Of a stretch of 34,056 nucleotides of DNA, positions 1 through 27,607 are shown one piece after another (the first letter of the stretch is position 1; every line of letters begins with the position of its first letter). Both the position numbers and the translations under genes were made by a program. The stretch is from Gammaproteobacteria bacterium (GTDB taxonomy: Bacteria > Pseudomonadota > Gammaproteobacteria > Steroidobacterales > Woeseiaceae). The notes beneath the pieces were generated by a model. That model searched no databases, was not told the origin of the DNA, and saw only the letters and a program-made list of their open reading frames with translations. The stretch lies in the NCBI GenBank assembly GCA_029863705.1, contig JAOTUU010000013.1, positions 1 through 34,056 of the forward strand, written 5' to 3'.

Positions 1-749
1 TCGACCTGCTTCCAGTACTCGATAAGTGTTTCCTTTTGCACTTCCTTAAAGTTCATGAGGCCAACGATGGGCAGTGATGCGGGCTGCGTCATGACCAGTT
101 TGCGCCGGGGGAAGTGGGCAACTGTGCCGCCGAGCTCTTCCTGTTCCAGCGTTGCGTACCGGAGCTTCGATTCTTTGGCGCCAAGTGTCGCCGAAAGACC
201 TGCAGGGCCGGCGCCCACAATAACCACGTCCAACTCATTCTGATGCGGCTGTTTGACGACAGCAGCAATCGACTGTAATGCCTGCCTGCCTTGTTCCACA
301 GCATTTCTGATCAACCCCATGCCGCCGAGCTCTCCGGCAATAAAGACACCCGGCACGTCGGTCTGAAAATCGGGGTTCACGCGTGGAATATCGATGCCCC
401 GCTTGGATGTTCCGAACACCAGCGTAATCGCATTGACGGGGCAAACGGTCTTGCAAGTGCCATGGCCGATGCAGTTGGTTGGCCCAATCAGGCGTGCTTT
501 CTTCCTGATCATTCCCAGCACTGCATGGGAGCTTTGCTCCGGACACGCCGCCACGCAATTGGTGCAACCGATGCATTTCGTAAGGTCGATTTCCGGATGT
601 AGTGTCGGTGGCTCAATCATGCCGGATTCGGTGGACGTCACAAGGACGTCCAGACTGTACGATTCCTTGTGCCTGTGACTTCGCAGGTACAACGCGAAAA
701 TCACTATGATTGGCACGGCATACAGAGCTATTTGTAGAGCATTACCCAA
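1..749 (-). CDS. Membrane-anchored ferredoxin-like/FAD-NAD(P) oxidoreductase, C-terminus cut by window edge
   Basis: 249 residues are visible and the gene runs off the left edge. Residues 6-23 form a hydrophobic anchor. A dicluster ferredoxin-like domain follows: C59, C62, C65, C69-Pro, then C93, H96, C99, C103-Pro, so the second motif has His where the second Cys is expected. Residues 131-160 (VPGVFIAGELGGMG and following) resemble the C-terminal FAD motif of thioredoxin-reductase-like proteins. They lie before the dinucleotide fold, VIVGAGPAG at residues 176-184, which leads into LGGTVAHFPRRKLVM. The family is the YpdA/TrxR-like flavoproteins with an N-terminal ferredoxin domain. The likely role is cytoplasmic-face electron exchange between NAD(P)H and the membrane or quinone pool. 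The start is a TTG at 749; two stops (TAG, then TGA) lie immediately upstream in frame, and no in-frame ATG precedes the one for M44, which would remove the anchor. The gene is divergent from the cytochrome operon and probably belongs to the same system. Confidence 0.85.
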   Translation of the reverse strand, partial: MGNALQIALYAVPIIVIFALYLRSHRHKESYSLDVLVTSTESGMIEPPTLHPEIDLTKCIGCTNCVAACPEQSSHAVLGMIRKKARLIGPTNCIGHGTCKTVCPVNAITLVFGTSKRGIDIPRVNPDFQTDVPGVFIAGELGGMGLIRNAVEQGRQALQSIAAVVKQPHQNELDVVIVGAGPAGLSATLGAKESKLRYATLEQEELGGTVAHFPRRKLVMTQPASLPIVGLMNFKEVQKETLIEYWKQV

Positions 750-811
750 TGGCTATCACTTGGTCTTGCGCGGTAAAGAAATTCAAGGTTAGTGAGGCTG
801 TGATTTCCTAG

Positions 812-827
812 TGTGACGCGAATCACA
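812..827. promoter_or_regulatory. CRP/Vfr-type operator between divergent electron-transfer genes
   Basis: TGTGACGCGAATCACA is a perfect match to the CRP half-sites TGTGA-N6-TCACA. It lies 63 bases upstream of the TTG start of the flavoprotein and 156 bases upstream of the TPR gene start, inside the 233-base divergent intergenic region. This suits activation of either or both transcripts by a cAMP-CRP-like protein. FNR sites share some bases, but no TTGAT-N4-ATCAA motif is seen here. I could not assign convincing -10/-35 elements in either direction. Confidence 0.6.
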
Positions 828-982
828 AAATAGCCTAAACAGCGGTGACTCGAGCCGTAATCCTGTCGGCAAAAAGAGACATAAGCACAAAATCGGGAAC
901 CCTTCCTACTTTTTGTTCGTGTTAATGACTAATGTGTGTTCTAGCCGGCAACTACATTGTCAGGACCGGATCAGGATTGGAT

Positions 983-1435
983 ATGTCAGGATTCTTTTGG
1001 GTAGCCAGCATCACGATGGCTAGTATCGCTTTTGCTTTTGTGGGCCTGCCGCTTCTTACAAGCGGTAAGCGAATATCGATACTCGTCACCGCTATTGCGG
1101 TGCCGCTTTTTGCGGGCGGCCTTTATTGGACTTTGGGCACACCAGCAGCGGCTGGCAAAATACCTTTGTCTGGCGAAGCGACACCAACGACGCGCAACAG
1201 CTCTTCGAAATCTGCAGAGCAGGTTGGTTCGGTTGCCAGCATGGTCGAAGGGCTTGCTGCCCGACTTGAGATGAATCCGGAAGATGGCGCGAGCTGGTTG
1301 CTACTGGCGAAGTCCTACAAACACCTGGGCCAGATCCCCGATGCGATCGCAGCGTACGCAAGAGCGGCGGCACTTGGAAAAACCGACCCGGACCTGGCAG
1401 CCCTGTCCGGCATTCAGATCCCCATCAACCAATAA
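983..1435 (+). CDS. CcmI/NrfG-like TPR protein for cytochrome c maturation
   Basis: This 150-residue protein has two N-terminal membrane helices (about residues 4-25 and 31-50), a low-complexity linker (55-83) and a C-terminal TPR region (84-140). The TPR block reads MVEGLAARLEMNPEDGASW and continues with a second helix pair typical of CcmI and NrfG. These proteins present apocytochrome c to the haem ligation machinery through their periplasmic TPR. The loop between the two helices is only about six residues, so the cytoplasmic leucine-zipper segment of full CcmI is missing. ATG at 983 is chosen over an upstream in-frame GTG/ATG because AGGA lies about 9 bases before it and the first helix follows directly. 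It is the first gene of the cytochrome operon, 14 bases before the next gene, which suggests a maturation factor dedicated to the very haem-rich products downstream. Confidence 0.75.
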   Translation: MSGFFWVASITMASIAFAFVGLPLLTSGKRISILVTAIAVPLFAGGLYWTLGTPAAAGKIPLSGEATPTTRNSSSKSAEQVGSVASMVEGLAARLEMNPEDGASWLLLAKSYKHLGQIPDAIAAYARAAALGKTDPDLAALSGIQIPINQ

Positions 1436-1449
1436 GAAGACCGATAGTT

Positions 1450-2355
1450 ATGTTGGAAGCAACTGTCATTAACGAGGCGGCGACGCAGGAAACGGCCGAG
1501 CCAAAGCAAGCGAAGAAAGTGAAGTCACGCGCTGGCCTCTACGGTTACCTGTTTCTATTCGCCGCCTTAATTGGCGGTTTGCTTTTGCGGGAACAGAAGC
1601 TCGTGAACCCCCAAAACGGTTTCGGCTATTGGCTCGGGATCGTTGGCGGATCGCTGATGCTGTTCTTGCTTCTATACCCGGCCGGAAAGAAGTCGACGAT
1701 CCTGCGACGAATGGGTCTTGTTAAGCATTGGTTTCGCATCCATATGATTATCGGCCTGGTCGGACCGTTACTCGTCCTCTATCACTGCAATTTCAGCGTG
1801 TCGGCCATGAACAGCAAAGTCGCGCTTTATAGCATGCTCGGTGTTGCAGTCAGCGGCCTCATTGGGCGCTATTTCTACACACGCATTCACCGCGGCCTAT
1901 ACGGCAAGCGAGCTGGAATTGAAGACCTTCGAGCCGAAATCGCCGATGCAATGAGCAACAGCCGCGGACTCGCGGCGATATTGCCAAAGTTTATCGACGA
2001 ACTGCACACCGTCTCCGCTGACCTGATGGGCGACAAATTCACTCGTGCCATCAGCATGCGGCGAAGCCTCTTGTGGAACATTAAATACTACGTCGTGCGA
2101 GCCCGGCTTTTCTTGACAATTCTGCGCGAATTGCACGGTCACGCGGTTGTCTCAGACACAATGCGCGCCAATAAGAAGAACCTGCAGAAAACCGCCAACG
2201 CCTATGCGGCGCAGCAAGTTCGCCTGATGCGGCAGGTCGCCCAACTTTCATTCTATGAACGACTCTTTTCGCTGTGGCACATCTTTCATTTGCCGCTTTT
2301 CATTTTGCTCGTGATATCGGCGCTGGTTCATGTGCTCGCGGTCCACATGTACTAA
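1450..2355 (+). CDS. Dihaem cytochrome b-like membrane protein
   Basis: This 301-residue protein has a charged N-terminal tail (1-27) and five predicted membrane helices at about 29-47, 60-76, 97-112, 124-142 and 278-298. A long soluble segment (145-275) lies between helices 4 and 5. Helix 3 carries H98 and H112, and helix 5 carries H280 and H294. Both pairs have the H-X13-H spacing by which cytochromes b coordinate two stacked haems. I therefore read it as a dihaem b-type quinol dehydrogenase/quinone reductase linking the inner-membrane quinone pool to the periplasmic cytochrome encoded next (17 bases downstream). Further histidines (93, 147, 277, 299) lie near helix ends. I do not recognise a named family. 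The function follows from the His spacing and the operon. Confidence 0.65.
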   Translation: MLEATVINEAATQETAEPKQAKKVKSRAGLYGYLFLFAALIGGLLLREQKLVNPQNGFGYWLGIVGGSLMLFLLLYPAGKKSTILRRMGLVKHWFRIHMIIGLVGPLLVLYHCNFSVSAMNSKVALYSMLGVAVSGLIGRYFYTRIHRGLYGKRAGIEDLRAEIADAMSNSRGLAAILPKFIDELHTVSADLMGDKFTRAISMRRSLLWNIKYYVVRARLFLTILRELHGHAVVSDTMRANKKNLQKTANAYAAQQVRLMRQVAQLSFYERLFSLWHIFHLPLFILLVISALVHVLAVHMY

Positions 2356-2372
2356 CCGCTTAGTCAAGTGCA

Positions 2373-3941
2373 ATGAACTGGCACAAATACATATTGATCG
2401 TACTAGCGATGACGTTTGCTGTTCTTAACTATAACGATGCGTTTACGCAGGAGATCGAGACGCTGGTTATGCCCGGGCAAGTGATCGCGGGACACGCGGA
2501 CATCGAGTCCGAGTGTTCGTCGTGCCACAAGATGTTTGACAAAGCGGCTCAGCCCCAACTCTGCATGGACTGTCACGAAGATATTGGCACAGACATTGGC
2601 TCATCCACCGGCTTTCACGGCCTTCATCCGGAGGCCAGCAAGGATCAATGTTCAAGCTGTCACACTGAGCACGAAGGTCGAGATGCAGTCGTTGTGATTC
2701 TCGACGAGAATCTGTTTGACCATTCTTTCACCGACTTCGACTTGTCCGGTGCGCATCTGGAGGCCGAATGTAGCGGCTGCCATGCGACTGACAAAATGCA
2801 TCGTGAAGCGCCTGCTGACTGCGTGAACTGCCACGAGGAGGACTTGCCTCACGAAGAAACGATGGGTACCGACTGTGCGGCTTGTCACCAACCGACCGAG
2901 TGGCTGGACGCGAAATTTGGTCACTCAACGACGGACTTTTTGCTCGTTGGCAAACATCAGGATGCGGCGTGCCTTGGTTGTCACGAAGATCGGACATTCC
3001 CGAGTCCGGCAACGACCTGTGTTAGCTGCCATGCGGAAGACGATGCCCACGACGGCCGCAGCGGTGATGACTGCGCCAGTTGCCACACTCCTGAAGACTG
3101 GAACGAGACGAGTTTCAATCATTCCCGCGATACGGAGTTTCAACTGTTGGACAGCCATGCGGCTTTGTCATGCGGAGACTGTCACTCCGAGAGCCCCTTC
3201 GAGGACGAGATGGAGACGGGCTGCGTCTCCTGCCATCTTGAAGATGACAGCCACGATGGCCACAACGGCGACCAATGCGACAGCTGCCACCGCAGTACGT
3301 CCTGGGAGGAACCGTTTTTCGACCATAACCGTGACACGAAGTACCGCCTTCTCGGCGGACATAAGGAAGTTGCATGTATTGATTGCCACGTCGAACCGGT
3401 TTTCGAGGTAACGCCATTGATGAGTTGTGACTCGTGCCATCTGGACGACGATGCACACGAAGAGTCGCTGGGATCGCGTTGCGGAAGTTGCCACACGGAA
3501 GTTGAGTGGCAAGACCCCGTGTTTTTCGATCACGATCTTACTCGATTCCCTCTCCTTGGCACGCACAACGAGAATAACTGCGAGGATTGCCACGAGACAC
3601 AAGCGTTCGGCCACGAGGAAGGTGACTGTGCTTCCTGCCACCGTGAAGACGACCCGCACAACGGCAATTTCCATGATCGCTGCGGTGCCTGTCACAACCC
3701 CGTTGCCTGGGAAATCTGGACATTTGATCACGACGTACAGGCGAGCTTCTCGCTTACAGGCGCGCACGTCAGCGTTGCCTGTGAAGATTGCCACCGAAGC
3801 TCGCTGGACAAGATGATGTCAATCAGTAGTAGCTGTCGCAGCTGCCATCGCGCCGATGATATCCATGATGGCGAATTTGGATCCAATTGTGGTCGTTGTC
3901 ACTCGGCTGAATCGTTTATGGAAGTGAGGTCACTGCAATGA
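2373..3941 (+). CDS. Periplasmic 21-haem cytochrome c
   Basis: This 522-residue protein has an N-terminal signal or anchor (residues 5-24) and 21 CXXCH motifs by direct count, starting with CSSCH near residue 48 and ending with CGRCH near the C-terminus. Most of the chain is a degenerate repeat of about 65 residues with three haems each. Its pattern is a Phe-x-His element, then L-x-G/S-H, then CxxCH, CxxCH followed by an acidic EDDxHDG-like segment, then a third CxxCH followed by an aromatic residue. The spare histidines suit bis-His ligation. The protein is strongly acidic. No lipobox is visible, so a soluble periplasmic location is likely, carrying electrons between the dihaem cytochrome b and the outer-membrane module. 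Its stop overlaps the next start by four bases (ATGA), which implies translational coupling. Confidence 0.85.
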   Translation: MNWHKYILIVLAMTFAVLNYNDAFTQEIETLVMPGQVIAGHADIESECSSCHKMFDKAAQPQLCMDCHEDIGTDIGSSTGFHGLHPEASKDQCSSCHTEHEGRDAVVVILDENLFDHSFTDFDLSGAHLEAECSGCHATDKMHREAPADCVNCHEEDLPHEETMGTDCAACHQPTEWLDAKFGHSTTDFLLVGKHQDAACLGCHEDRTFPSPATTCVSCHAEDDAHDGRSGDDCASCHTPEDWNETSFNHSRDTEFQLLDSHAALSCGDCHSESPFEDEMETGCVSCHLEDDSHDGHNGDQCDSCHRSTSWEEPFFDHNRDTKYRLLGGHKEVACIDCHVEPVFEVTPLMSCDSCHLDDDAHEESLGSRCGSCHTEVEWQDPVFFDHDLTRFPLLGTHNENNCEDCHETQAFGHEEGDCASCHREDDPHNGNFHDRCGACHNPVAWEIWTFDHDVQASFSLTGAHVSVACEDCHRSSLDKMMSISSSCRSCHRADDIHDGEFGSNCGRCHSAESFMEVRSLQ

Positions 3942-6895
3942 AGGAATCAATATTGAAGACCCCATTTCGACAGCGCCCGACGTCAATAGCCTGGAGCCTG
4001 TTTCTGCTGTCCATCGCGGTCGTCGGCCTGTTCGCGTCCAGCAATGCGTCATCTCAGCAGTCGTTCGATCACTTTAGCACCGGCTTCGTGCTCGATGGAG
4101 CCCACACCAGCGTTACCTGCGAAAGTTGTCATGCGGGCGGAACGTTTGGCCCGACGGACGCTGCCTGCTCAAGCTGCCATTCGCAAACCGGTGTGGTACG
4201 CGCATCATCGAAGCCGGCCAGCCATGTTGCGACGCAGGGGGAATGCTCGGATTGCCACATTACGGCGAACTGGGCCGTCGTCAATTTTATCGACCATTCG
4301 TCCCTGAGCGGAAACTGCGTCAGTTGTCACAATGGCTTCCAGGCAACCGGAAAGACCCCAACACACATCTCGTCCGGGGATCGGTGCGAAGATTGTCACA
4401 ATACGACAGGCTGGCTCCCCGCGAATTTCGACCACTCCGGCCTTTTTAATAATTGCGTAAGTTGCCATGACGGCACTACCACGACCGGCAAAAACCCGAC
4501 ACACGTGCAGACAAGCAACGTCTGCGAAGACTGTCACAGTACGATTGCGTTCGTTCCCGTCGTCACGGTCGATCACACGCAGGTTCTGGGTGCGTGCGGT
4601 TCCTGCCATGACGGCGTGACGGCGGCAGGCAAACATGCAACTCACATCAGCAGCGGCACAAATTGCGACGACTGCCATTCGACGGTTGGGTGGTTGCCCG
4701 CCAATTTCGACCATCTCGATATCACCGGCAACTGCGTGAGTTGCCACAACGGTGTCGAAGCGGCCGGCAAGAATTTTTCGCATATGCAGACAACGAATGT
4801 CTGCGAAGACTGCCACAACCCCAATTTATGGGCGCCGACATTTACCGTCGACCACACGCAGGTGCTGGGAACTTGTAGCTCCTGCCACGATGGCGTTACC
4901 GCGTTGGGCAAGAACGCAACGCATATCTCGAGTGGCATCAACTGCGACGACTGCCACTCGACGACCGGCTGGTTACCTGCAAACTTCAACCACAGCGATA
5001 TCACGGGTAACTGCAGCAGCTGCCATGACGGCGTGGATGCTACCGGCAAAGACCTTGCTCACATTCAGACCAGCAATGTCTGCGAAGACTGCCACAATTC
5101 AAATGTATGGGCGCCAGTAAACACAGTCGATCACACGCAGGTCATAGGTACTTGCAGTTCATGTCATGACGGCATCACGGCATCCGGCAAGAACCCGACA
5201 CACATCACCAGCGGCGATACCTGTGACGACTGTCACTCGACCGTCGCATGGCTACCAGCAAATTTCGACCATTTAAACATCACCGGTAGCTGCATTGACT
5301 GCCATAACGGCGTGGACGCCATTGGCAAGGACCTTACGCATATTCAGACCAGTGACGTTTGCGAGGACTGCCATAACACCAACATATTCGCGCCCGTGTT
5401 TAGCGTCGACCATACCCAGGTCATCGGCACCTGTAGCTCCTGTCATGATGGCGTGATTGCAACCGGCAAGCACCCGACGCACTTCACCAGCAGCGATACC
5501 TGCGACGACTGCCACACGACGGTCGCCTGGAGACCGGCGACATTCGACCATCTGGATATTACGGGCAATTGCACAAGCTGCCACAACGGCCTGGATGCTA
5601 CCGGCAAAAACCTGGCGCATATGCAGACGAGCAACGTCTGTGAGGATTGTCACAACAGCAGTGTGTGGGCTCCCGTCGATACGGTCGATCACACACAGGT
5701 ATTGGGTAGCTGTGGCTCCTGTCATGACGGTTTTACAGCAACAGGCAAACACCCCACGCATATCACAAGTAACGATAGCTGTGATGACTGTCATTCCACG
5801 GTTGGCTGGTTACCCGCCAATTTCGATCATGCAGGCATCGTTGGCAATTGCGTCAGCTGTCACAATGGCGTCGAAGCCACCGGCAAAAATCTCACGCACA
5901 TTCAAACGACTGATGTGTGTGAAGACTGCCATAACGCGAATATCTGGGTGCCCGTTTACACGGTAGACCATACACAGGTGCTCGGAACCTGCGGCTCTTG
6001 CCATGACGGCATAATTGCCACAGGCAAGAACGCGACGCACATTACCAGTGGCACTAATTGCGATGACTGTCATTCAACAGTCGGCTGGCTGCCTGCAAAT
6101 TTCGACCACGTAAATATTACGGGCAACTGTGCCAGCTGCCATAATGGTACCGAGGCTACGGGCAAAAACCTGACGCACATCCAGACGACCGATGTTTGCG
6201 AAGACTGCCATACTTCGAACGTCTGGGTACCGACCTACCTCGTCGACCACACCCAGGTAATTGGCACCTGCGGCTCCTGTCATGACGGCACAGTTGCGAC
6301 CGGCAAACACCCGACGCATATCACCAGCGGCAATAACTGCGATGACTGCCACACGACAGTCGCGTGGCTGCCCGCCAACTTCGACCACATCAACATCGTG
6401 GACAACTGTGTTAGTTGCCACAACGGCACGGATGCCATCGGCAAGGGACCGGCACACGTCCAGACAACCAACGTCTGCGAGGATTGCCACAGCACAGCGG
6501 TTTGGGCGCCTGTTACAACGATGGATCACAACCAGGTGCTCGGCTCCTGTTCATCTTGCCACAATGGCACCACGGCCACCGGACAGAACCCTGGCCACTT
6601 CAATACCGCGCAAGATTGTGGCGTATGTCATAGCCCGATCGCCTGGCTGCCGGCCGACTACCGGCATACCGGTCTAACGTATGAGCCACAGGATCATCGT
6701 GGTAACTTCGCTTGCACCGAGTGCCACCAGAACAATTCGGACGTGGTCAATTGGTCTTCGCCCGGTTACCAGCCCAATTGCGCAGGCTGTCACGCCGGTG
6801 ATTACAAGGCCAGCGTAAACAAGCACAACGGCCTGACACGCGATCAGAATTGTGCGTCCAGTGGCTGCCACAGAATCAGCGACAACGAATGGTAG
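3938..6895 (+). CDS. Giant tandem-repeat cytochrome c (39 CXXCH + 1 CX4CH)
   Basis: This 985-residue protein has a signal peptide (hydrophobic core about 17-34, cleavage likely after residue 38-40). I count 39 CXXCH motifs and one CX4CH motif (CASSGCH) nine residues before the end, so up to 40 haems. After three leading haems come 17 half-repeats of alternately 46 and 47 residues, each with two haems. The pattern is CxSCHxGxxATGKxxxH, then CEDCH or CDDCH, then an aromatic/Pro segment and a DH motif. A C-terminal cap with three haem sites follows. The regularity suggests an extended, wire-like molecule. No lipobox or membrane helix is visible, so it may span the periplasm, insert in the barrel encoded next, or be surface-exposed. 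The gene overlaps the previous one by 4 bases and the next by 7. Similar CHNGxxATGK repeats occur in multihaem proteins of other Proteobacteria. Confidence 0.85.
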   Translation: MKESILKTPFRQRPTSIAWSLFLLSIAVVGLFASSNASSQQSFDHFSTGFVLDGAHTSVTCESCHAGGTFGPTDAACSSCHSQTGVVRASSKPASHVATQGECSDCHITANWAVVNFIDHSSLSGNCVSCHNGFQATGKTPTHISSGDRCEDCHNTTGWLPANFDHSGLFNNCVSCHDGTTTTGKNPTHVQTSNVCEDCHSTIAFVPVVTVDHTQVLGACGSCHDGVTAAGKHATHISSGTNCDDCHSTVGWLPANFDHLDITGNCVSCHNGVEAAGKNFSHMQTTNVCEDCHNPNLWAPTFTVDHTQVLGTCSSCHDGVTALGKNATHISSGINCDDCHSTTGWLPANFNHSDITGNCSSCHDGVDATGKDLAHIQTSNVCEDCHNSNVWAPVNTVDHTQVIGTCSSCHDGITASGKNPTHITSGDTCDDCHSTVAWLPANFDHLNITGSCIDCHNGVDAIGKDLTHIQTSDVCEDCHNTNIFAPVFSVDHTQVIGTCSSCHDGVIATGKHPTHFTSSDTCDDCHTTVAWRPATFDHLDITGNCTSCHNGLDATGKNLAHMQTSNVCEDCHNSSVWAPVDTVDHTQVLGSCGSCHDGFTATGKHPTHITSNDSCDDCHSTVGWLPANFDHAGIVGNCVSCHNGVEATGKNLTHIQTTDVCEDCHNANIWVPVYTVDHTQVLGTCGSCHDGIIATGKNATHITSGTNCDDCHSTVGWLPANFDHVNITGNCASCHNGTEATGKNLTHIQTTDVCEDCHTSNVWVPTYLVDHTQVIGTCGSCHDGTVATGKHPTHITSGNNCDDCHTTVAWLPANFDHINIVDNCVSCHNGTDAIGKGPAHVQTTNVCEDCHSTAVWAPVTTMDHNQVLGSCSSCHNGTTATGQNPGHFNTAQDCGVCHSPIAWLPADYRHTGLTYEPQDHRGNFACTECHQNNSDVVNWSSPGYQPNCAGCHAGDYKASVNKHNGLTRDQNCASSGCHRISDNEW
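4316..6664 (+). repeat. In-frame tandem repeat, 279-base period, about 8.5 copies
   Basis: The repeat lies within the giant cytochrome gene. Successive haem-pair cysteine codons fall at 4316, 4454 and 4595, giving 138- and 141-base half-units and a 279-base full period that continues to the haem near 6617. The half-units differ systematically: one type carries CEDCH followed by WAPV and VDHTQV, the other CDDCH followed by STVGWLPANFDH. Third-codon positions vary freely among copies, so the copies are old and held by protein selection rather than very recent amplification. It is coding and is not a CRISPR array. Confidence 0.9.
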
Positions 6896-9333
6896 CTTCG
6901 GATTTCAATTGTAGCGGTCGCCGATTCCGCCGCTGGGTAGCTGCTACTCTGCTTGTTCTTGCGGCGCCGGTGACATGGGCCGGTCCTGGTTTTATTAGCA
7001 TCGCCCGGGTTTCAGGTGATGAGCTGAACGCCGACATTGCAATCAGTTTCAATTGCAAAGCCCAGTATATTCGACATGAACCGCAAGGCCGCGGCGACCA
7101 CGTGCGAATCTATTTGGACCCAACCGGGATCTGTAACGGTGTATCTCCACTCGTCGCAAGTTCCCGGGCACTGATGCGTCCGCTCAACGCCGACATGGCG
7201 CGGCTGTCTGACCTGGAATACGACGGCGAATCAGCGGCGGGTTCAGTCCTTACGCTGAGCTTCAGCGAACCGGTCGACTACACGGTAGATATGTCAGACA
7301 TCTCCTTCGAACTCGTTGTTCACGTTCGTCCTGTCTCGGCGCAAACCGCGGAAGCGGCAGAAAGGCCGGTAGTCGATCACCGACGCGTCGCCCAAGCGCC
7401 GGTCGAAATGCCTGACTACGCTATCAACTTGGCATCGTTCCAGCGCATACCGACCATCGCGGATGCACCCGGACTGATCCCCGCGTCGACGCAGAGACTT
7501 TACTACTCGGAGGCGAATGTCGACGGCGAAAGCTGGTATCGCCTCAGGCTGGGTAGTTTCAGCTCCGTCGACGAGGCCTCAGTAGTTCTCGCCGGGCTGC
7601 GACGAAAATTTCCCGATGCCTGGATAGGTGAGATCGACACGGATGAAGTCACCGTCGAAATGATTGCCGTCGAAGATGACGAGATACCCGTGCTCAGCAG
7701 CTTGGGCGACGGCGCCAGCAAGGTCGATTTACTAATGGAGGAAGCGCGCAAAACCATGGCGGCAGGCGACACGTCCAGAGCAATTCAGATCTATACAAAG
7801 ATTCTCCAAATGCCAGAGAATTCGCGCCAGCCCCAGGCACAGGAATACCTTGCCCTTGCGCGCGAGAAAAATGGACAAATGGCGCATGCAAAAGCGGAAT
7901 ACCGGCGATATCTGTCAATGTACCCGGATGACGATGGTGCCGCCCGAGTTGCCCAACGGCTTGCCGCCCTGCTTGCAACCGGCCGACAAGCCAGCTCCGC
8001 GAGCGGCGGACAGGGCATTGGCAAAGTCGCGAAGCAAAGCGACTGGCGAATACAGACGTTCTTTTCTCAATACTACAGGCGTGATGCGAATCAGCAGAAC
8101 GAGCAGGAACAGATCGTCAGCCACTCGGCGCTGTACTCAGACGTAAATTTCGATGCAAGGCGGCGCGGAGAGCGATTCGATTTCAGCAGCCGGGTGTCTG
8201 CCGGGTATCGCAGCGATTTTCTCGGTGAGGAAGTGGGCAGCGGCAACGAGACGAGAATTTCCTATGCGTATGCCGATTTGGCGGATGCAAAAACAGGCTG
8301 GCGTGGACGATTTGGCCGCCAGTCCAGGAATACCGGTGGGGTACTCGGTCGATTCGACGGTTTGAACGTCGGCTACCAGGCGAGCGAGCGACTGTTGCTT
8401 AACGCTGTTGTCGGCAAGCCAGCATATTCGGCATCTGACGGCGTCGATTCAGCACGGTCGTTTTACGGTGCCAGCCTCAATTTCGGGCCCATTCTGGAGA
8501 ACCTCGATCTCGGGCTGTTCTACATCGATCAGAAAATTGACGGCATCCAGGATCGGCAGGCTATTGGCACCGAGTTTCGTTATTTCGGCACCAGCCAGAG
8601 CCTTTGGGGCATGATTGACTATGATTTGGCGTTCGGCGAACTTTCCAGCGCATTCCTGCAGGGCAGCTGGCGGCTGCCGTCGCGGCTGTCGCTTCACGCA
8701 GTTATCGATCGGCGCGGCAGCCCTTTCCTGAGTACCAGCAACGCCATCATCGGCCAACCGGTGGCATCGTTTGATGAGCTCGCTGTTATTTTCAGTGAAA
8801 ATGAACTGCTGCAACTCAGCCAGGACCGCACGCCCGTTTCGACGACATTCACGGTAGGGCTGTCTTATCCGATCTCGCCGAAGCTGCAGATCAATGCCGA
8901 TACGAGCCACTCAACAATTGAGGAAACTCCGGCATCGGGAGGTGTCCTGTCGACGCCCGGCGCAACCTACAGTTACTATTCGACCAGCCTGATTGCCAGC
9001 AGCTTATTCAAAGAAGGCGATGTGACGATATTCGGTGCTCGATACTCGGACTCCGATACGACAAAGGTAGTATCGCTAACGGTCGACAGCCGCTACCCGA
9101 TCGGCAGAACCTGGCGGATAAACCCAAGGTTGAGAGTTGACCGCAGGCAAAGGCTGGCGGATTCGAGTTATGAATGGCTTTACACGCCCGGATTACGAAT
9201 ACAATATCGGCGTAGTCAAAAACTGCGCATCGAACTCGAAGTCGGCAAGCAATTCTCACAGAGAGAAACGGTCGATGCGGATTTGGACCGCGAGTCCTAT
9301 TTCATTCGCCTCGGCTATCAGCTGTTTTTCTGA
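6889..9333 (+). CDS. Outer-membrane beta-barrel with SPOR and TPR regions (porin of the cytochrome cluster)
   Basis: This 814-residue protein has a signal peptide (core about 17-29, cleavage near TWA-GP). A beta-rich domain at about 33-147 is loosely AMIN-like. A SPOR-like region at about 178-250 contains YAINLASFQ and WYRLRLGSFSS, and TPR-like helices at about 275-365 contain the repeated YTKILQMPE and YRRYLSMYPD pattern. From about 385 to the end there are alternating amphipathic strands ending in YQLFF, the C-terminal Phe signal of outer-membrane barrels. The last gene half alone could supply roughly 16-22 strands. The likely role is the porin sheath through which a multihaem cytochrome passes electrons across the outer membrane. 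The SPOR region could tether it to peptidoglycan. ATG 6889 overlaps the previous stop by 7 bases (translational coupling). An upstream in-frame TTG at 6850 would add 13 non-signal-like residues. Confidence 0.75.
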   Translation: MVASDFNCSGRRFRRWVAATLLVLAAPVTWAGPGFISIARVSGDELNADIAISFNCKAQYIRHEPQGRGDHVRIYLDPTGICNGVSPLVASSRALMRPLNADMARLSDLEYDGESAAGSVLTLSFSEPVDYTVDMSDISFELVVHVRPVSAQTAEAAERPVVDHRRVAQAPVEMPDYAINLASFQRIPTIADAPGLIPASTQRLYYSEANVDGESWYRLRLGSFSSVDEASVVLAGLRRKFPDAWIGEIDTDEVTVEMIAVEDDEIPVLSSLGDGASKVDLLMEEARKTMAAGDTSRAIQIYTKILQMPENSRQPQAQEYLALAREKNGQMAHAKAEYRRYLSMYPDDDGAARVAQRLAALLATGRQASSASGGQGIGKVAKQSDWRIQTFFSQYYRRDANQQNEQEQIVSHSALYSDVNFDARRRGERFDFSSRVSAGYRSDFLGEEVGSGNETRISYAYADLADAKTGWRGRFGRQSRNTGGVLGRFDGLNVGYQASERLLLNAVVGKPAYSASDGVDSARSFYGASLNFGPILENLDLGLFYIDQKIDGIQDRQAIGTEFRYFGTSQSLWGMIDYDLAFGELSSAFLQGSWRLPSRLSLHAVIDRRGSPFLSTSNAIIGQPVASFDELAVIFSENELLQLSQDRTPVSTTFTVGLSYPISPKLQINADTSHSTIEETPASGGVLSTPGATYSYYSTSLIASSLFKEGDVTIFGARYSDSDTTKVVSLTVDSRYPIGRTWRINPRLRVDRRQRLADSSYEWLYTPGLRIQYRRSQKLRIELEVGKQFSQRETVDADLDRESYFIRLGYQLFF

Positions 9334-9353
9334 TGATGATGGAGCAATTGGAA

Positions 9354-9938
9354 ATGTCGTTGCGGAAATTTCAGTGTCTCCTGACCGCGGTCGCACTTGC
9401 TGCACTTATTGGGTGTTCGTCCACCGCTTCAATGACGACCCAGAAACTGGATCCGTTAACGGCAGTCACGATTACATTTGCCAGGTTGCCGCTCGTTTTC
9501 TATCACGATCAGTCCGGTCGCGCCGCGCATGCGCGGGACTATATTCATTTGGCGCCGCTCGAAGTTAACCGTGGCGGAACGTACCGCTATTTTGTCTGGC
9601 TCGGAATCTGGAACACGCAGCAAGACAGCCAGACCGGCGGCCCGCGCGACGGCTTCGAGTCCATCGTCGTAATAGCGGACGGAAAGCCCAAGGTGTTGGA
9701 GCTAAGCGGGTGGACGGCGGCGTCCGTTGGCGCAAGTGAACCGATATATCTAAAACCGGTTGCTTCGTCGTCGGATGCCTACTATGAAGTGACTGCCGAT
9801 TATCTTCGCCTGCTCGCCGAGTCGAGGGAAATTCGTATTCGATCGAGCGGCTCGCGCGGAGCATCCTACGATCCTTGGGACAATCAGGAACGAGCTTTGG
9901 CGAGCTTGCGCGAATTCCTGCACGACGTCAGCTACTGA
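9354..9938 (+). CDS. Small outer-membrane lipoprotein of unknown function
   Basis: This 194-residue protein has a lipoprotein signal peptide ending in the lipobox L18-I19-G20-C21. Ser at +2 predicts sorting to the outer membrane. The mature part has a mixed alpha/beta character with a conserved-looking core (YRYFVWLGIWNT near residue 82). I recognise no domain, haem motif or catalytic motif. ATG 9354 is preferred to the upstream ATG cluster at 9333 because GGAG lies 9 bases before it and the signal peptide then has normal length. It is the last gene of the operon, 20 bases after the barrel gene. Possible roles are assembly or stabilisation of the barrel-cytochrome complex. That is inference from position only. 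Confidence 0.7.
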   Translation: MSLRKFQCLLTAVALAALIGCSSTASMTTQKLDPLTAVTITFARLPLVFYHDQSGRAAHARDYIHLAPLEVNRGGTYRYFVWLGIWNTQQDSQTGGPRDGFESIVVIADGKPKVLELSGWTAASVGASEPIYLKPVASSSDAYYEVTADYLRLLAESREIRIRSSGSRGASYDPWDNQERALASLREFLHDVSY

Positions 9939-9943
9939 TTGCT

Positions 9944-9960
9944 GCAGGCTAGTTGCCTGC
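9944..9960. terminator. Possible hairpin between convergent genes
   Basis: GCAGGC-TAGTT-GCCTGC is a perfect 6-bp stem with a 5-base loop, just after the cytochrome operon stop and overlapping the stop codon of the convergent Sel1 gene. There is no T-tract on either side, so an intrinsic terminator is uncertain. Confidence 0.3.
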
Positions 9961-10551
9961 CGCGCTCTTGAAATCGTTTATCCACTTGAGCGCTATTTGC
10001 TGTGCTTTGGCAACGTCTTCTGCTGACATTCTCTCCACGAGTTCATCGCGTTTAAGTCCCGCACCCAGGTCGTCGCCTATCTGGGCCGCGATGTCGTACC
10101 AGGCGTATGCCTGAACACGGTCTTTTGTTACGCCCATACCGTGGCCGCACGCGTAAGCCAGCGCTTTCTGCGCCGGCACGAATCCCTGCTCCGCTGCAGA
10201 CAGGTATAAACGTGCAGATTCATCCCAATTCATGTCCACGCCCCAACCATTCGCGTACATGACACCCAGGTTGAACTGCGCTTCGGCGTGACCAGCATCG
10301 GCTGCAAGGGCGTACCACTTGATTGCCAGCGCGTCGTCCATCGCCACGCCAAACCCGTTGGCGTACAGGCGGCCAACACAGAATTGAGCCCCTGCGTTGC
10401 CTGCATCGGCCAATGGCTGGCACTCTGCAAGTGACGTTTCGTAGTCGCCTTCATTGAACGCGGTGAGCCCTTTTTGCAGATCGGCAGAAACTGCCAAACC
10501 GGGCGCATGCAGAAGCGCAAGTAGAATGGCGATTCTGGTAGAAACACGCAT
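9949..10551 (-). CDS. Secreted Sel1-repeat (TPR-like) protein
   Basis: This 200-residue protein has a signal peptide (MRVSTRIAILLALLHAPGLAVSA). Three to four Sel1-like repeats at about 50-160 carry the signature A-x-x-x-LG-x-x-Y-x-x-G-x-G-V, for example AQFNLGVMYANGWGV. Sel1 proteins are periplasmic helical scaffolds for protein-protein contacts. The specific partner is unknown. ATG 10551 is preferred over one 30 bases upstream because GGAGGAG lies 9 bases before it and the signal peptide begins there. It is convergent with the cytochrome operon and separated from the upstream formylglutathione hydrolase gene by 114 bases, so it need not be related to either. Confidence 0.8.
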   Translation of the reverse strand: MRVSTRIAILLALLHAPGLAVSADLQKGLTAFNEGDYETSLAECQPLADAGNAGAQFCVGRLYANGFGVAMDDALAIKWYALAADAGHAEAQFNLGVMYANGWGVDMNWDESARLYLSAAEQGFVPAQKALAYACGHGMGVTKDRVQAYAWYDIAAQIGDDLGAGLKRDELVERMSAEDVAKAQQIALKWINDFKSAAGN

Positions 10552-10665
10552 GTTGCTTAACTCCTCCAGGCGCTGCCACAATCACCTGCAGCAGCATCGC
10601 TCCCATTTGCGCAGGAAGGCCTCTTAATCTCAATCGGGAGAACTACTTACGGCTCTAGCGCTCTG

Positions 10666-11520
10666 TCAAAGACCGAGTATTCTGGCATGGTGCCTGAGGT
10701 GGTCTTCCACAAAGGTCGAGATGAAATAGTAGCCGTGGTCGTATCCGTCGTGCATCCGCAGCTCCAGGGACAAACCGCTTTCGGCGCAGGCTGCTGCAAA
10801 GAGCTCCGGCTTCAGTTGCTCCGCAAGATACGCGTCATCATTGCCCTGATCCACAAGGATTGTCGGGCGCTGGGCACCATCTGCTACTTTTCGGGCGACT
10901 TCGCAGGCGTCGTACTCGTGCCAGGCGGACTTTTCGCTGCCAAGAAAGTAGCGCAGCGCTTTTTGGCCCCAAAGGCTGTGCAGCGTGGTACAAATCGGTG
11001 CGAACGCCGACAACGACTTGAATACGTCCGGATGTTTTAGCCCGATCGTCAAAGCACCATGGCCGCCCATCGAATGCCCGGTCAGCCCGTGCCGGCTTGC
11101 ATTGCCAGGGAAGTTATCAAATACCGCTGGTTGCAATTCGTCCATCACGTAGTCGTACATATTGTAGTGACGGGACCAGGGATCTTCGGTCGCATTAAGG
11201 TAGAAGCCGGCACCCAGACCGAAATCGTAGTCGCCATCCGGGTCGTCCGGCACGCCGTCACCGCGCGGACTGGTATCCGGGGACACCAGCATGATGCCGA
11301 GATCCGCAGCGATTCTCTGCGCACCACTTTTGACCATGAAATTTTCTTCCGTGCAGGTCAGACCTGACAGAAACGTAACAACCGGGACAGCGCCACCCAC
11401 CGCCTGGGGTGGGACGAATACTGAGAATTGCATGTCGCAATGGTTAGCGCTGGACGAATGGCGGTAGAAACCCATCTTGCCGCCAAAGCAGTGAGTCTCG
11501 CTAAGTGTTTCGAGTGTCAT
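10666..11520 (-). CDS. fghA: S-formylglutathione hydrolase
   Basis: This 284-residue enzyme is the usual length for the esterase D family. It hydrolyses S-formylglutathione to formate and glutathione, the last step of glutathione-dependent formaldehyde detoxification in the cytoplasm. The alpha/beta-hydrolase triad is visible: nucleophile S150 in GHSMGG, Asp in the DQGNDD segment at about 225-229, and H262 in YDHGYYF. The family signature LSGLTCTEENF (51-61) is intact. It lies 22 bases after fabB on the same strand. The usual partner, the glutathione-dependent formaldehyde dehydrogenase adhC/frmA, is not in this window. Confidence 0.93.
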   Translation of the reverse strand: MTLETLSETHCFGGKMGFYRHSSSANHCDMQFSVFVPPQAVGGAVPVVTFLSGLTCTEENFMVKSGAQRIAADLGIMLVSPDTSPRGDGVPDDPDGDYDFGLGAGFYLNATEDPWSRHYNMYDYVMDELQPAVFDNFPGNASRHGLTGHSMGGHGALTIGLKHPDVFKSLSAFAPICTTLHSLWGQKALRYFLGSEKSAWHEYDACEVARKVADGAQRPTILVDQGNDDAYLAEQLKPELFAAACAESGLSLELRMHDGYDHGYYFISTFVEDHLRHHARILGL

Positions 11521-11542
11521 GCGTCCGGATTATGCCCGGACA

Positions 11543-12754
11543 TCAGCTCTTCTGGAATACCAGCGTGGCGTTAGTGCCGCCAAAGCCGAAGCTGTTCGAC
11601 ATGACGGTCCTGATACCGGCATTGTCCAGACACTCAGTCACCAGCGGTGCACCTTCGATTGCAGGATCCGGGTCGTTGACGTTGATCGATGGCGCAATGA
11701 AGTCGTCTTTAAGCATAAGCAGGCAGTGAATTGCCTCCTGCACGCCGGTTGCACCCAGTGAATGCCCACACAGTGACTTCGATGATCCGAATTTCGGCAG
11801 GTCATCGCCAAACACCGAACGCATCGCCGTAATTTCGGCAATATCACCGGCCGGCGTACTTGTGCCGTGTGTGTTGATGTAGTCGATAGAACCGTCAACC
11901 GTCGAGTTGGCTAACTCCATGCATCTCTGCGCGCCTTCGCCTGACGGCGCAACCATGTCGTGACCATCAGATGTCGCACCGTAACCTACGAGCTCAGCGT
12001 AGATCTTCGCGCCGCGCGCTTTGGCGTGCTCGAGCTCCTCGAGAACGACCATGCCGCCGCCGGCAGCAATAACGAATCCATCGCGTGTCGCGTCGTAGGG
12101 CCGTGAAGCTGTCGCCGGTGCATCGTTGTACTTGGACGACAAGGCACCCATCGCATCGAACAGGCATGCGAGCGTCCAGTCTTCCTCTTCGCCGCCGCCG
12201 GCGAACACGATATCTTGTTTGCCAAATTGAATTTGTTCGGCACCGGCACCGATACAGTGGGCGCTCGTAGCACAGGCAGATGTGATCGAATAATTAACGC
12301 CTTTAATTTTGAATGGCGTTGCGAGGCATGCCGAAACAGTGCTTCCCATCGTTCGCGTAACCATATACGGGCCGATCTTTCGCACGCCACGATCGCGCAA
12401 CTTGTCCGCGCTCTGCACAATGTTCGCGCTCGAAGCACCACCCGATGCTGCGATCAGACCTGAGCGAACATTGGAAACGTCGCTTTCCTCAAGACCGGCA
12501 TCATCAATAGCCTGTTGCATCGAGATATAGGAGAATGCTGCGGCGTCACCCATGAAACGCCGAACTTTTCTATCGATGTGATCGGCGAGATCGATATTGA
12601 CGGTTCCCGAAATCTGGCTGCGCAGACCCATCTCCAGGTAGGACTCATTCGCAACGATGCCCGACCTGCCATTGCGCAATGAATCGACAATTTCCGCCTG
12701 ATTGTTGCCAATGCACGAGACAGCACCAATACCTGTAACAACAACTCGCCGCAT
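11543..12754 (-). CDS. fabB: 3-oxoacyl-ACP synthase I
   Basis: This 403-residue condensing enzyme elongates acyl-ACP with malonyl-ACP and is needed for unsaturated fatty acid synthesis. The catalytic Cys-His-His set is present: C161 in [10 protein letters not shown]296 in NTHGTSTP and H331 in CGHSLGATG. Length and N-terminus ([13 protein letters not shown]) are typical. It follows fabA by 9 bases, and the two form the standard fabAB operon for the anaerobic (FabA-dependent) route to unsaturated lipids. This pairing is a strong Gammaproteobacterial or Alphaproteobacterial marker. Confidence 0.96.
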
Positions 12755-12763
12755 CGCTAATTC

Positions 12764-13315
12764 CTAGAAGTCATCCGTGGAAGTGAACAAGCCTACCCGA
12801 AGGTCTTCAGCTACATATATTTCACGCCCATCAACCGACATTGTCGCATCGGCAATGGCCATGTTCAATTTGCGCTCAATGACACGTTTCAGGTCGATTT
12901 GATACGTGACCAGCTTGGCTGTTGGCAGGACCTGGCCCGTAAATTTGACCTTGCCTGAGCCCAGCGCCCTGCCTCGCCCGGGCAAATCTTTCCAGACGAG
13001 AAAAAATCCGACGAGCTGCCACATTGCATCCAACCCCAGACAGCCCGGCATGACCGGATCGCCCTCGAAATGACAGCCGAAAAACCACAAATCCGGGCGG
13101 ATATCGAGCTCTGCCTTAATCTCGCCTTTGCCGTATTTGCCGCCCTCGTCCGAAATATGCGTAATGCGATCCATCATCAACATATTGGGTAGCGGTAAAC
13201 GCCCGTTTTTCGGCCCAAACATGTTGCCGTGGGCGCAGTCTATGAGTTCGTCGTAACTGAATGAATTCGGTCGCCCGGGAGATTCAAGCATTGAGGAATT
13301 TTTGGAATCGGTCAT
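12764..13315 (-). CDS. fabA: 3-hydroxydecanoyl-ACP dehydratase/isomerase
   Basis: This 183-residue hot-dog-fold enzyme dehydrates 3-hydroxydecanoyl-ACP and isomerises trans-2- to cis-3-decenoyl-ACP, the branch point to unsaturated fatty acids. Catalytic H82 lies in [11 protein letters not shown] and D96 in LGLDAMWQL. The protein is about 12 residues longer at the N-terminus than E. coli FabA (171). The extension (residues 1-15) is polar and unremarkable. GGAG seven bases upstream supports the ATG at 13315. It is the first gene of the fabAB pair. Confidence 0.96.
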
Positions 13316-19472: not shown

Positions 19473-22400
19473 TTAGTCGTCTAGCTCATAAGCGAGCAAC
19501 ACGTTGCCCGGCATCTGGCCGAACATGCCGTAACCGGAGTACACAAACAAGCGCTTTCCATCGACAACAATACCCGACAGATCGATTGCGCCACCGTGGC
19601 CCACAAGGCCATTGTCGGCGTCGTAACGACGTTTCGTATCTATAACTTTCAGCTGCTTGCCGCTCTGCGCGTCAATAATTCGCAGTTTTCCGTCCAGAGC
19701 GCCTGCGTAGAGAACACCGTTTGCGTACAGCGGCGCAGCTGAATGTCCGTAATAAAACGAGCACTCCGGCCAGGGATTGCGCGACGCGGCATCGCGCATT
19801 GCAACAAGCCCGACGCGCGGCGCATCGGCCGGATCGAATTCGCAACCGCGTTCAATGGGCATCGACCAAACAGGCTCGCCGTCGGCAAGCTGCACAGCGT
19901 AGACCCCGGGTTTTGGAACGTATCCTTCTCGTCGACGTGGCGGGTCGGCGACTGCCGCCCATACCGAGTCTCCGTCAGTCGCGACACCCCAGTGAATTCC
20001 GCCGTTGGACGTTCCCATGCTTAATCGCTGCTGCCAGATAAGCGCGCCCTCGTTATCCGGATCGAGTGCATAGAGATGCCCGGATTTCTGCCCGGCGATA
20101 ATGATGTCCTTGCCATTCTTGTTCTGGGTCAAAGTAATCGCGCCGCCGAAATCGAAATCTGGCCCGGCATTATCCGGACAGTTCGCACCGCCAAGGTGGC
20201 ATGCCACGTTCCAGATATCACCTTGCAGCGCCTGGAACACCCACGCCTCTTCGCCGGTTTCGATATCGAGGGCGACAACAGAATCGCTGTTATGCGTCGC
20301 CGGTGCAGACATGTTTTGGGCGGTGCCGATAATTATCCGGCCGCGCTCAACATCGACCGCCGGCGTCGTCCAAACGGCCGCACCGGATGGTCCCCATATA
20401 TCGGTACCTGCGCTGGTCACGCCAATTTTCCTGGCCTGTTCTGTTGTGTGATATGTCCACTGCACCGATCCATCCGTGGCATCAATGGCCGCAACACCGC
20501 CGTGGGAACGACAGCAAGGATAGGTATCGAGCCCGGCAAGTGCCGTCTCGAATGTAGACACCGGCACGAACAGGCGATCCTCGTGAAACGCGAAAGAACC
20601 GCTGATAACCGAAACTGGAAACCAGCGCAGCGATGTCTTCCACAAAAGCTCGCCGTCGTTGGCTGACACCGCGTAGACCGTGCCGAGGTCATCGGCAAAG
20701 AACAGCGTCGCAACGTCGTCCGAAGTCGTGTCGAGGTTTAGCGACGAGCGCACGGAGCTGTCCGCCGCAAAACGCCAGTGGATACAGCTGCTTTCCTGGT
20801 CGATCGCAAAGACATTGCCGTTGGAAGTAGCTGCGAATAAAACTCCATCCGCAGCAACAGGTTGCGAGCGCATCTCCGTTACGCCCGGAAACGCCATTGA
20901 CCACTTGAGGCGCAAGTTCTCCGCGTTGCCAGGTGAGATCTTGCTGCCATTGGAAGCACGCGTATTGCCTGAGCCAAAGCCCCAGTTGTCTTCAGGCCCC
21001 GATTGAACTGACACGGCTCTGCGTGGTGAACACATCTGCGAGGCGATCCACTCATCCCTGTTCTCAGAGCTGCCCGCGCTTAGGAACTTCGCAATCATCA
21101 GCCGCTCATCGGCCTTCAGGTGCGCCGCCTGCTGCATCATCATGCCGAACTCGAGCGCGCGGGCAATGCGAGCGAATGGCATCCGCTTTAGTGTGCTTAA
21201 GTCGGGCGCCTTAAGCTCGGCGAGAGAATGGCAGCTGTCGCAGTGCTGCCCATACAGCGCGCTACCCTGCTCCATGATCGGATCTACGGGCTCAACAGGG
21301 ATGCCGGCGTCGATGCGTATCAGCGTCGGTTGTCCACCCTCGATCATCCAGCTCGGAAAATGCGAATTGCTTGTGTACACGCCGCCGTCTTCGCCAAACT
21401 CGATATCCCGAGTGAACGTGTGCTTCCGGGGCATGGGATACACACGCCAGGACTCGGTTGCGATATCGAACGAGATAATCGTGTCGGATTGATTACCGTT
21501 AATCCAGACAACGCCATTCTCCCTGTCGACATTGAGCGCATACGGCGTTTCACTGACAACCGGCAGCTCGTAGAGCGAAAACACTTCGGCAACAGGGTCG
21601 TACTTCGCCAGCTTACCGTCCGAAAAAGAAACGATCCAGACATTGCCTTTAGCATCAACGCGCAATCGACGTGGTGCGTTGAACGGCGTTTCGATCATCG
21701 TTACTTCGTCGGTCTCCGGGTCGATTTTCGCGATGTCCTTAGCATGCAGGCGTGTCGCCCAGACCGACCCATCAACCGGCGACACGTCTATGCCGTAGGG
21801 CAAAGGAAACCCTGTTGTCTCCCAGTCGAGATCTGGCCGGCCGCCAACGTAGCCATGGCCCAGGCGGAAATCGATGACCTTTAGTGCCGCCCATTCCAGG
21901 ATGCCACGGGCCGGAAGGTCGTAGTACTTGAACTCCCCGGTATTGCGATCGAACATCGCGACCTGCGATGACAGCGCGAGCGTAAACCAGACGCGATTGT
22001 TTCTGTCGGCTCGTATCGTATGCGGGTAGAAGCCCTCGTCCATTTTGTGGCGGAAAAATTCTCCGCTTTCAGGGTCAAATTCGATCAACTCCTGCTGCAT
22101 CGACGGCGTCAGGAATATGTGCCCATCCCGCGGAGCTATCGCAAACGAATGCACGCCCATGTAGTTATCCGTCTTGGGGTAGGATCCCATGCGCTTGCCG
22201 AGGATACCGCCGTGCTGCGCACCTTCATCGTGTGGCACTTTGAATACTTCGTACTCGTTCGTTTCCGGATCGAGGGCGTAAATGCGATCCATCAGGTTGT
22301 CGCCGATGTAGACCTTGCCGTTTGGATGCGCAATGAAATCGTGCATTTGCGAAAAACCATCGCCTATCGGCCATTCGGTGATCGTCACCGAGGACAGGCT

Positions 22401-23120: not shown

Positions 23121-23147
23121 TGGCACTGAGCCTTCTTATTTGGGGTC

Positions 23148-25019: not shown

Positions 25020-25080
25020 CGATCGTCCTGCTCAAATGGGGAGGCCTTATGCTCTCACATGCCAATTGATCACATCCACA

Positions 25081-26892: not shown

Positions 26893-26904
26893 TACGAGTT
26901 CTCT

Positions 26905-27591: not shown

Positions 27592-27607
27592 AATTTTCCT
27601 GCCTGAC

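Follow-up and report, generated by a model that had tools for sequence, protein, structure and literature searches.

The best-known porin-cytochrome conduits draw on quinol, and the inner-membrane donor of the Mtr conduit is the quinol oxidase CymA. A further porin-cytochrome cluster, PCC3, was named by He et al. in 2017. In the text of that study it contains a β-barrel, large periplasmic and extracellular cytochromes, and an inner-membrane protein (IMP) of about 300 amino acids (aa) with an SGXXG motif, two WX3HX13H motifs and five transmembrane helices (PMC5566968). The same text gives haem medians of 34 for the outer and 21 for the periplasmic cytochrome, with a maximum of 85 in one protein (PMC5566968). 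Since 2017 PCC3 has figured as a candidate iron oxidase whose function is untested, and the texts of later papers regard the function as predicted or unverified (PMC12442390; PMC13386937; PMC12016527; PMC10734462). Here, we describe a locus of this type in the first 9.9 kb of a 34,056-nucleotide stretch (contig JAOTUU010000013.1 of assembly GCA_029863705.1; hereafter the window), together with a flavoprotein that is a candidate for the missing inner-side partner of PCC3. The window is one complete contig of a fragmented metagenome-assembled genome (MAG) comprising 402 contigs, 93.8% complete and 5.5% contaminated. The host is a marine sediment gammaproteobacterium of the Woeseiaceae type.

The locus opens with a divergent gene, truncated at the contig end, and continues with six tightly packed forward genes. 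Its features, by window coordinates, are:
3..749, minus strand: flavin adenine dinucleotide (FAD)/Fe-S flavoprotein, cut by the contig end (Pfam Fer4_7, Fer4_21 and Pyr_redox; synteny)
812..827, no strand: CRP-type palindrome TGTGACGCGAATCACA, an exact TGTGAN6TCACA in the divergent promoter region
932..1435, plus strand: CcmI/CycH-type TPR protein with two transmembrane segments (Pfam TPR_CcmH_CycH below cut-off; relative L021)
1450..2355, plus strand: dihaem cytochrome b-like protein, the PCC3 IMP, 301 aa (two WX3HX13H, SGXXG)
2373..3941, plus strand: 21-haem c-type cytochrome, 522 aa, the putative periplasmic wire (21 CXXCH; Cytochrome_C7, Cytochrom_c3_2)
3938..6895, plus strand: 40-haem c-type cytochrome, 985 aa, the putative extracellular wire (39 CXXCH and 1 CX4CH; Cytochrome_C7, Paired_CXXCH_1)
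6889..9333, plus strand: outer-membrane barrel with N-terminal beta domain, SPOR and TPR, the PCC3 porin (SPOR above cut-off; structural model)
9333..9938, plus strand: lipoprotein-like protein, 201 aa, fold without assignment (no Pfam family; LIGC lipobox by eye)

The forward genes are separated by 14, 17, -4, -7 and -1 bases when the barrel is taken to start at ATG 6889, a choice that yields 814 aa, equal to the closest relative. These gaps bear out the tight spacing of six forward genes reported by a first-pass annotation of the sequence. The same annotation had placed an NAD(P)H/FAD ferredoxin-like gene in the cluster. That gene is membrane-anchored and does belong with the cluster, but it is divergent rather than forward and is cut by the contig end.

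By gene content and motifs, the locus is a PCC3 porin-cytochrome cluster. It has the same four genes, namely the barrel, the outer and inner multihaem cytochromes, and a 300-aa IMP with SGXXG and two WX3HX13H, so that the resemblance to PCC3 noticed at first pass agrees with the definition of He et al. (2017). The two cytochromes have a low 24.6 and 24.9 residues per haem, compared with a published range of 22-39 and a median of 26 (PMC5566968). The haem-site total of 61, of which 60 are canonical, is ordinary for PCC3 in view of the published medians and maximum. The flavoprotein, the CcmI-like protein and the lipoprotein-like protein are not named in the text of the published definition, figures and supplements aside. 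The inner-membrane and NAD(P)H modules had been taken for additions to PCC3; the IMP already defines PCC3, while the flavoprotein is indeed unlisted. The system had also been called not yet characterised, which holds for its function but not for the type itself. MtrCAB and MtoAB resemble the locus in placing a barrel with periplasmic and outer multihaem cytochromes across the outer membrane. They differ in that the window barrel has no MtrB_PioB (PF11854) match, the cytochromes here carry 21 and 40 haems rather than 10, and the locus encodes its own IMP. The DmsE-family decahaem model TIGR03508 reaches 171 bits against a cut-off of 192, over repeated pieces of the 40-haem protein. PCC4, as described in the same text, shares the histidine pattern of the IMP and has Fe-S and other redox genes in the cluster, but it is without an extracellular cytochrome and has 4-, 5- and 10-haem proteins (PMC5566968).

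The association between the flavoprotein and PCC3 is strong. It was followed in 80 named loci, in 59 relatives and in 397 other genomes of the phylum, the window's own genome being left out of the 59 and the 397. The named loci lean to near relatives because they are the best 80 of 187 found with an alignment of the window and 13 relatives, and the phylum sample is the less biased test. Open reading frames (ORFs) were taken from stop to stop with no gene finder, and overlaps hid some genes (e.g., the L027 IMP and the L126 flavoprotein). MAG names are those of the deposited records, a few of which (Acidobacteriota, Nitrospira, Deltaproteobacteria, Planktophila) may reflect misbinning. The closest locus, L042 (91% identical), bears only the name Gammaproteobacteria, and other relatives are named Woeseiaceae and UBA1847; it is by such names among the nearest matches that the host is placed with Woeseiaceae. 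Of the 80 named loci, 75 carry the flavoprotein. In 74 of these it lies no more than 2.1 kb upstream of the IMP, and in L079 it follows some 7 kb downstream. The sequence of the remaining five loci extends at most 1.5 kb upstream of the IMP, and two of these (L046, L109) show 10 kb downstream without the flavoprotein. Across the 397 phylum genomes, strong matches to the flavoprotein (475-518 bits) and to the PCC3 IMP (241-279 bits) fall in the same 5 genomes (Fisher, 1.2e-11), and among the matches listed the other 392 have none of that strength to either protein. At most 5 or 4 candidates were scored per genome, with flavoprotein matches listed at E <= 1e-20, and strong matches were defined post hoc from gaps in the scores (241 versus 50 bits for the IMP, 475 versus 163 bits for the flavoprotein). 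The position of the flavoprotein varies among the five. It is upstream and divergent in G423, beyond a block with a CycH-type gene in G206, and downstream of the barrel in G305. In G101 it lies downstream of a PCC3-type barrel at a contig end, with the IMP on another contig. In G425 it follows the barrel at a distance of about 7 kb, ccmF and CycH-type genes lying between the two, and the contig starts with the end of an outer cytochrome. Among the relatives, 14 of 59 have a strong PCC3 IMP and one more, G039, has a contig-cut cluster. The flavoprotein is found in 11 of these 15 PCC3 genomes and in 0 of the 44 others at a score of at least 499 bits (Fisher, 4.9e-9); in all these counts related loci are not independent events. 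The conserved synteny that the first-pass annotation proposed to look for is found: the cluster order is widely conserved among relatives, and the flavoprotein co-occurs with it. As to plasmid carriage, 72,556 plasmid records gave a single distant tblastn match (28% identity, Emticicia).

The flavoprotein is comprised of an N-terminal membrane anchor, a ferredoxin-type Fe-S domain and a circularly permuted FAD/NAD(P)H domain resembling thioredoxin reductase (TrxR) and ferredoxin-NADP reductase. The window copy holds 249 of about 427-438 aa. The full-length relative in L042 matches Fer4_21 and Pyr_redox_3 and has a transmembrane segment at residues 4-22, and the protein is predicted to be cytoplasmic. 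The 67 full-length relatives share Cys 59, 65, 69, 93, 99 and 103 without exception (L042 numbering), and 65 of them also have Cys 62; alignment A4 contains 37 of the 67. In what would be a second [4Fe-4S] motif, a His replaces the second Cys, with the consensus CIGHGAC across the 67. All seven Cys of the L042 protein lie in the Fe-S region, which leaves it without a dithiol. Its core (residues 173-436) aligns with the FAD and NAD(P)H core of YpdA, thioredoxin reductase and TrxR-like ferredoxin-NADP reductase, the dithiol being missing. Unlike these enzymes, the flavoprotein is permuted and is fused to an Fe-S domain and a membrane anchor. The FAD-closing segment stands before the core in 88 and after it in 9 of the 97 proteins scored, the 88 including genes counted twice under different locus ids. 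A profile of this segment alone matches the C-terminal ends of the glutamate synthase small chain (E 0.0008) and, more weakly, of thioredoxin reductases (E 0.02 and up). The arrangement is a circular permutation because the C-terminal FAD segment of those enzymes precedes the core here. The 9 non-permuted proteins are of a longer type; a scan of one of them, that of L036, gave two stretches of cNMP-binding type and an Fe-S domain at the C-terminus. In the consulted passages of papers on PCC3 and Woeseiaceae, this flavoprotein is not mentioned as belonging to PCC3, although the figures of He et al. may show the gene unlabelled. As far as those passages go, the flavoprotein is a new component, absent from the published PCC3 definition.

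A second pairing joins the longer, non-permuted flavoprotein to a distant IMP. Neighbours of weak IMP matches were read at 13 loci, 5 from the relatives and 8 from the phylum sample. The two genes adjoin in L035-L039, which are all five such relatives fetched, and in 4 of the 8 further weak-match loci (L126, L127, L128 and L131, but not L129, L130, L132 or L133). Decahaem genes stand beside the pairing in 7 of the 9 loci and were not seen at that place in L035 and L036. The longer flavoprotein of L036 is a 789-aa protein with FAD/NAD(P)H, cNMP-binding and Fer4 parts. The pair is followed in L037 by a decahaem protein that carries an FHA domain, and additional genes for 10- and 4-haem proteins occur in both L036 and L037. 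This second cluster (L035-L039, L126-L128, L131) partly resembles PCC4. One relative, G043, carries the flavoprotein but gave no match to the IMP.

The IMP carries both of the H-X13-H pairs that had led the first-pass annotation to a dihaem cytochrome b. The pairs begin at residues 98 and 280, with a W four residues before each. In alignment A2, whose 58 sequences are the window's and 57 of the 64 IMPs with a suitable length, W94, H98, H112, S135, G136, W276, H280 and H294 are invariant and G139 is nearly so. The W before each pair was also invariant in an initial alignment of 14 sequences, window included. Hydropathy alone, at the lower threshold, gives five regions after overlaps are merged, and the structural model has helices at 28-45, 58-72, 91-112 and 120-146 and within 242-300. 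NADPH oxidases (NOX) and other FRD proteins (e.g., Streptococcus pneumoniae NOX) are comparable in that an NAD(P)H/FAD module is proposed to feed two stacked haems b with two HX13H pairs, and the model of the IMP gives a weak structural match to them. They differ in that the flavin and haem parts are here separate proteins with Fe-S motifs between, and the IMP has no PF01794 (FRD) match at E <= 0.01. The flavin domain of NOX is also different in kind from a TrxR-like domain. The likeness of the IMP to FRD was remarked on in the text of He et al. (PMC5566968). A second, shorter IMP copy (262 aa) lies between the CcmI-like gene and the flavoprotein in L027/L066 (G026:C9).

We propose, with a probability of roughly 55%, that the PCC3 conduit exports electrons outward and that the flavoprotein and the IMP feed it as a split, NADPH-oxidase-like transmembrane reductase. 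Electrons would pass from NAD(P)H, presumably NADPH rather than NADH, to FAD and then to the Fe-S clusters of the flavoprotein, cofactors that its motifs suggest it binds. From these clusters they would move to the two haems b of the IMP and so cross the inner membrane. The haems b would reduce the 21-haem cytochrome, which would span the periplasm and deliver electrons to the barrel. Through the barrel they would reach the 40-haem cytochrome and an acceptor outside, which could be oxidised Fe or Mn minerals, humics, an electrode or another cell. The CcmI-like protein would assist haem loading. A flavoprotein partner predicts both the donor, NAD(P)H, and the direction of flow. If this is true, a conduit of sediment bacteria that draws on NAD(P)H joins the best-known porin-cytochrome conduits. 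We suggest more tentatively that the PCC3 core itself is an NAD(P)H-driven exporter that dumps cytoplasmic reductant without the quinone pool, and not an Fe(II) oxidase.

Several observations weigh against outward export through a flavoprotein-IMP reductase. The fold of the IMP gave no Foldseek match below E 0.001, and in a second structural look unrelated helical bundles outscored the NOX-type match. The second pairing is loose in the phylum, where 5 of 13 genomes carrying the longer flavoprotein also have a weak IMP match, a match seen in 27 genomes overall. Four PCC3 genomes (G005, G021, G030, G039) are without the flavoprotein, so the conduit can exist without it. Their outer cytochrome has only 5-9 haems, and a search with the 40-haem protein found no longer outer cytochrome elsewhere in these four genomes. 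The flavoprotein is not missing from every locus with a short outer cytochrome: L071 and L091, where the barrel adjoins a 5-haem protein and an extra 26-haem protein is encoded, both have it. The flavoprotein can also adjoin ccm genes and so might serve cytochrome maturation. It would then be a haem or thiol reductase for c-type cytochromes, with 61 haems to attach, rather than the feeder of the conduit. In 45 of the 80 named loci the IMP is directly preceded by a CcmI/CycH-type gene, L142 has ccmF and a CycH-type gene near the flavoprotein, L122 has a CycH-type gene beside it, and the four genomes lacking the flavoprotein are those with low-haem outer cytochromes. Such a role is nonetheless improbable, given the missing dithiol of the L042 protein and the predicted cytoplasmic location. 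The second pairing also puts the flavoprotein beside the IMP, with no ccm family in the scanned neighbours (five in L036, one in L037).

The direction of flow is the other point of debate. In the model proposed by He et al., electrons from Fe(II) or reduced minerals enter the quinone pool via the IMP; the flavoprotein would then be a side branch or an indirect link to NAD(P). PCC3 could still serve such uptake, given that the host genome contains both a gene of the RuBisCO family and a locus of the MtrAB type. The RuBisCO large subunit family gene scores above the Pfam cut-off (L139, G000:C50:4000-20000), and its neighbours look by eye like genes related to the Calvin-Benson-Bassham cycle, one CbbR-like and one phosphoglycolate phosphatase-like, in an assembly with the contamination given above. 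The family search also matches Bacillus subtilis, and a family match alone is no proof of carbon fixation. The MtrAB-type locus (L137, G000:C54:8000-24000, at 5183-13280) encodes a barrel of the MtrB_PioB family (438 bits), a decahaem protein above the TIGR03508 cut-off and two more 9-10-haem proteins, with an adjoining gene that looks FNR-like by eye. It could cover metal reduction separately, so that the host may fix carbon and also reduce metals by a route other than PCC3. With these two loci the host is not simply heterotrophic, contrary to the impression at first pass. Uptake is further consistent with the presence of PCC3 in Fe(II) oxidisers (PMC5566968), and in Sideroxydans CL21 the text reports the PCC3 copy-2 IMP gene up when cells can oxidise iron (PMC12442390). 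The opposite was described in Sideroxydans lithotrophicus ES-1, where Fe(II)-citrate gave lower levels of both PCC3 clusters than thiosulfate did, and a spike of Fe(II) lowered them as well (PMC8788666). Neither S. lithotrophicus ES-1 nor L. cholodnii SP-6 appears among the titles of the 80 named loci, no look-up by name having been made. A frequent cytoplasmic NAD(P)H flavoprotein partner also fits uptake poorly, because electrons from Fe(II) need an energy input to reduce NAD(P)+ and no coupling is seen here. On balance we regard uptake as unlikely and prefer outward export.

The two cytochromes agree with the earlier count of about 61 haem sites. The CX4CH site of the 40-haem protein is CASSGCH, close to the C-terminus, and the CXXCH motifs expected by chance from the Cys and His content of each protein are 0.3 (21-haem) and 0.6 (40-haem). 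Outside the haem sites there are 27 and 44 further His, respectively, so a second ligand is possible for every haem. The 40-haem protein is built from 93-residue units of four haems each, and eight of these units have a mean identity of 70%. It has a hydrophobic segment at its N-terminus. That this cytochrome is extracellular and the other periplasmic is assigned from gene order and published usage. The periplasmic cytochrome was found in 79 of 80 named loci, and 66 of 72 complete homologues with at least 14 sites have exactly 21. The outer cytochrome ranges from 11 to 54 CXXCH in 48 complete copies with at least 10 sites, and the number is odd in 42 of the 48, a pattern that growth in units of two or four haems would produce. 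The inner wire is therefore of near-fixed length, whereas the outer wire is not. The fixed length may match the width of the periplasm, a relation proposed earlier (PMC10734462). With so many haems, the cytochromes could instead be mainly a charge store or a buffer against redox stress rather than part of continuous respiration. The very high haem load and the variable outer wire would suit such a capacitor, and the role is discussed for PCC3 in the text of PMC10734462. It is a very improbable main function, as the locus encodes what appears to be a complete path across both membranes, which storage alone would not need. A PCC3 subtype in L031-L033 (G021, G030, G005) has a 5-9-haem outer cytochrome, no flavoprotein and a nearby long ORF with 2 CXXCH. 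In L033 this ORF carries HYR domains and adjoins an ankyrin protein.

The barrel ends in Phe and has SPOR above the Pfam cut-off with a weak TPR. Its AlphaFold2 model (pLDDT 85) has 22 strands counted within residues 386-813, in line with the barrel first described. A plain phmmer search found 42 homologues in the named loci, and alignment A3 holds 38 of these plus the window. SPOR is present in 29 of 39 and TPR_9 in 30 of 39 PCC3 barrels scanned (E <= 0.01). The SPOR/TPR porin had been thought to set this locus apart, but since most of the barrels scanned have both, they are not additions to PCC3. The TPR protein first read as a haem-ligation helper is probably of the CcmI/CycH type. The window copy scores 26.9 bits with TPR_CcmH_CycH (cut-off 42) and has no Ig-like domain, and the longer relative L021 scores 89.1 bits with Ig_CycH (cut-off 27). 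The protein has 167 aa in the window, 168 aa in L042 and 260-310 aa in many relatives; the extra part of the longer form is the CycH Ig-like domain in L021. A TIGR03142 search of the host genome gave no match, missing even the window gene itself, and therefore says nothing on a second CcmI. A homologue of the lipoprotein-like protein is found in 30 of 80 named loci, loci ending before the gene being included in the 80, and 22 of the 30 have a lipobox-like pattern.

In the divergent promoter region, a CRP-type box with at most 1 mismatch occurs in 20 of 65 regions (64 named loci and the window) against 0.93 expected, and an exact box occurs in 6 of 65 against 0.03, both from 30 shuffles that preserved two-base blocks only and over regions many of which are related. 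The identical exact pattern occurs once more in the window, at 5639 inside the 40-haem gene. FNR-type boxes (TTGATN4ATCAA) were also considered and showed no excess over shuffles, with at most 1 mismatch in 1 of 76 regions and in 1 of 65 in the reduced set.

Elsewhere in the host genome, L138 (G000:C202, at 7442-12212) encodes two multihaem proteins with 11 and 19 CXXCH, each with a cytochrome b561-type domain in the chain. They adjoin genes that by eye resemble fumarate reductase subunits. Within Woeseiaceae, the Entner-Doudoroff pathway is described in the text of one study as confined to the genus UBA1847 (PMC12175321). Genes resembling this pathway by eye lie at 24042-29080 of the window. 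The window also encodes, at 19473-23126, a 1217-aa protein with 2 CXXCH that combines a virginiamycin-lyase-like propeller, a weak c-type haem domain and a pyrroloquinoline quinone (PQQ)-dehydrogenase propeller.

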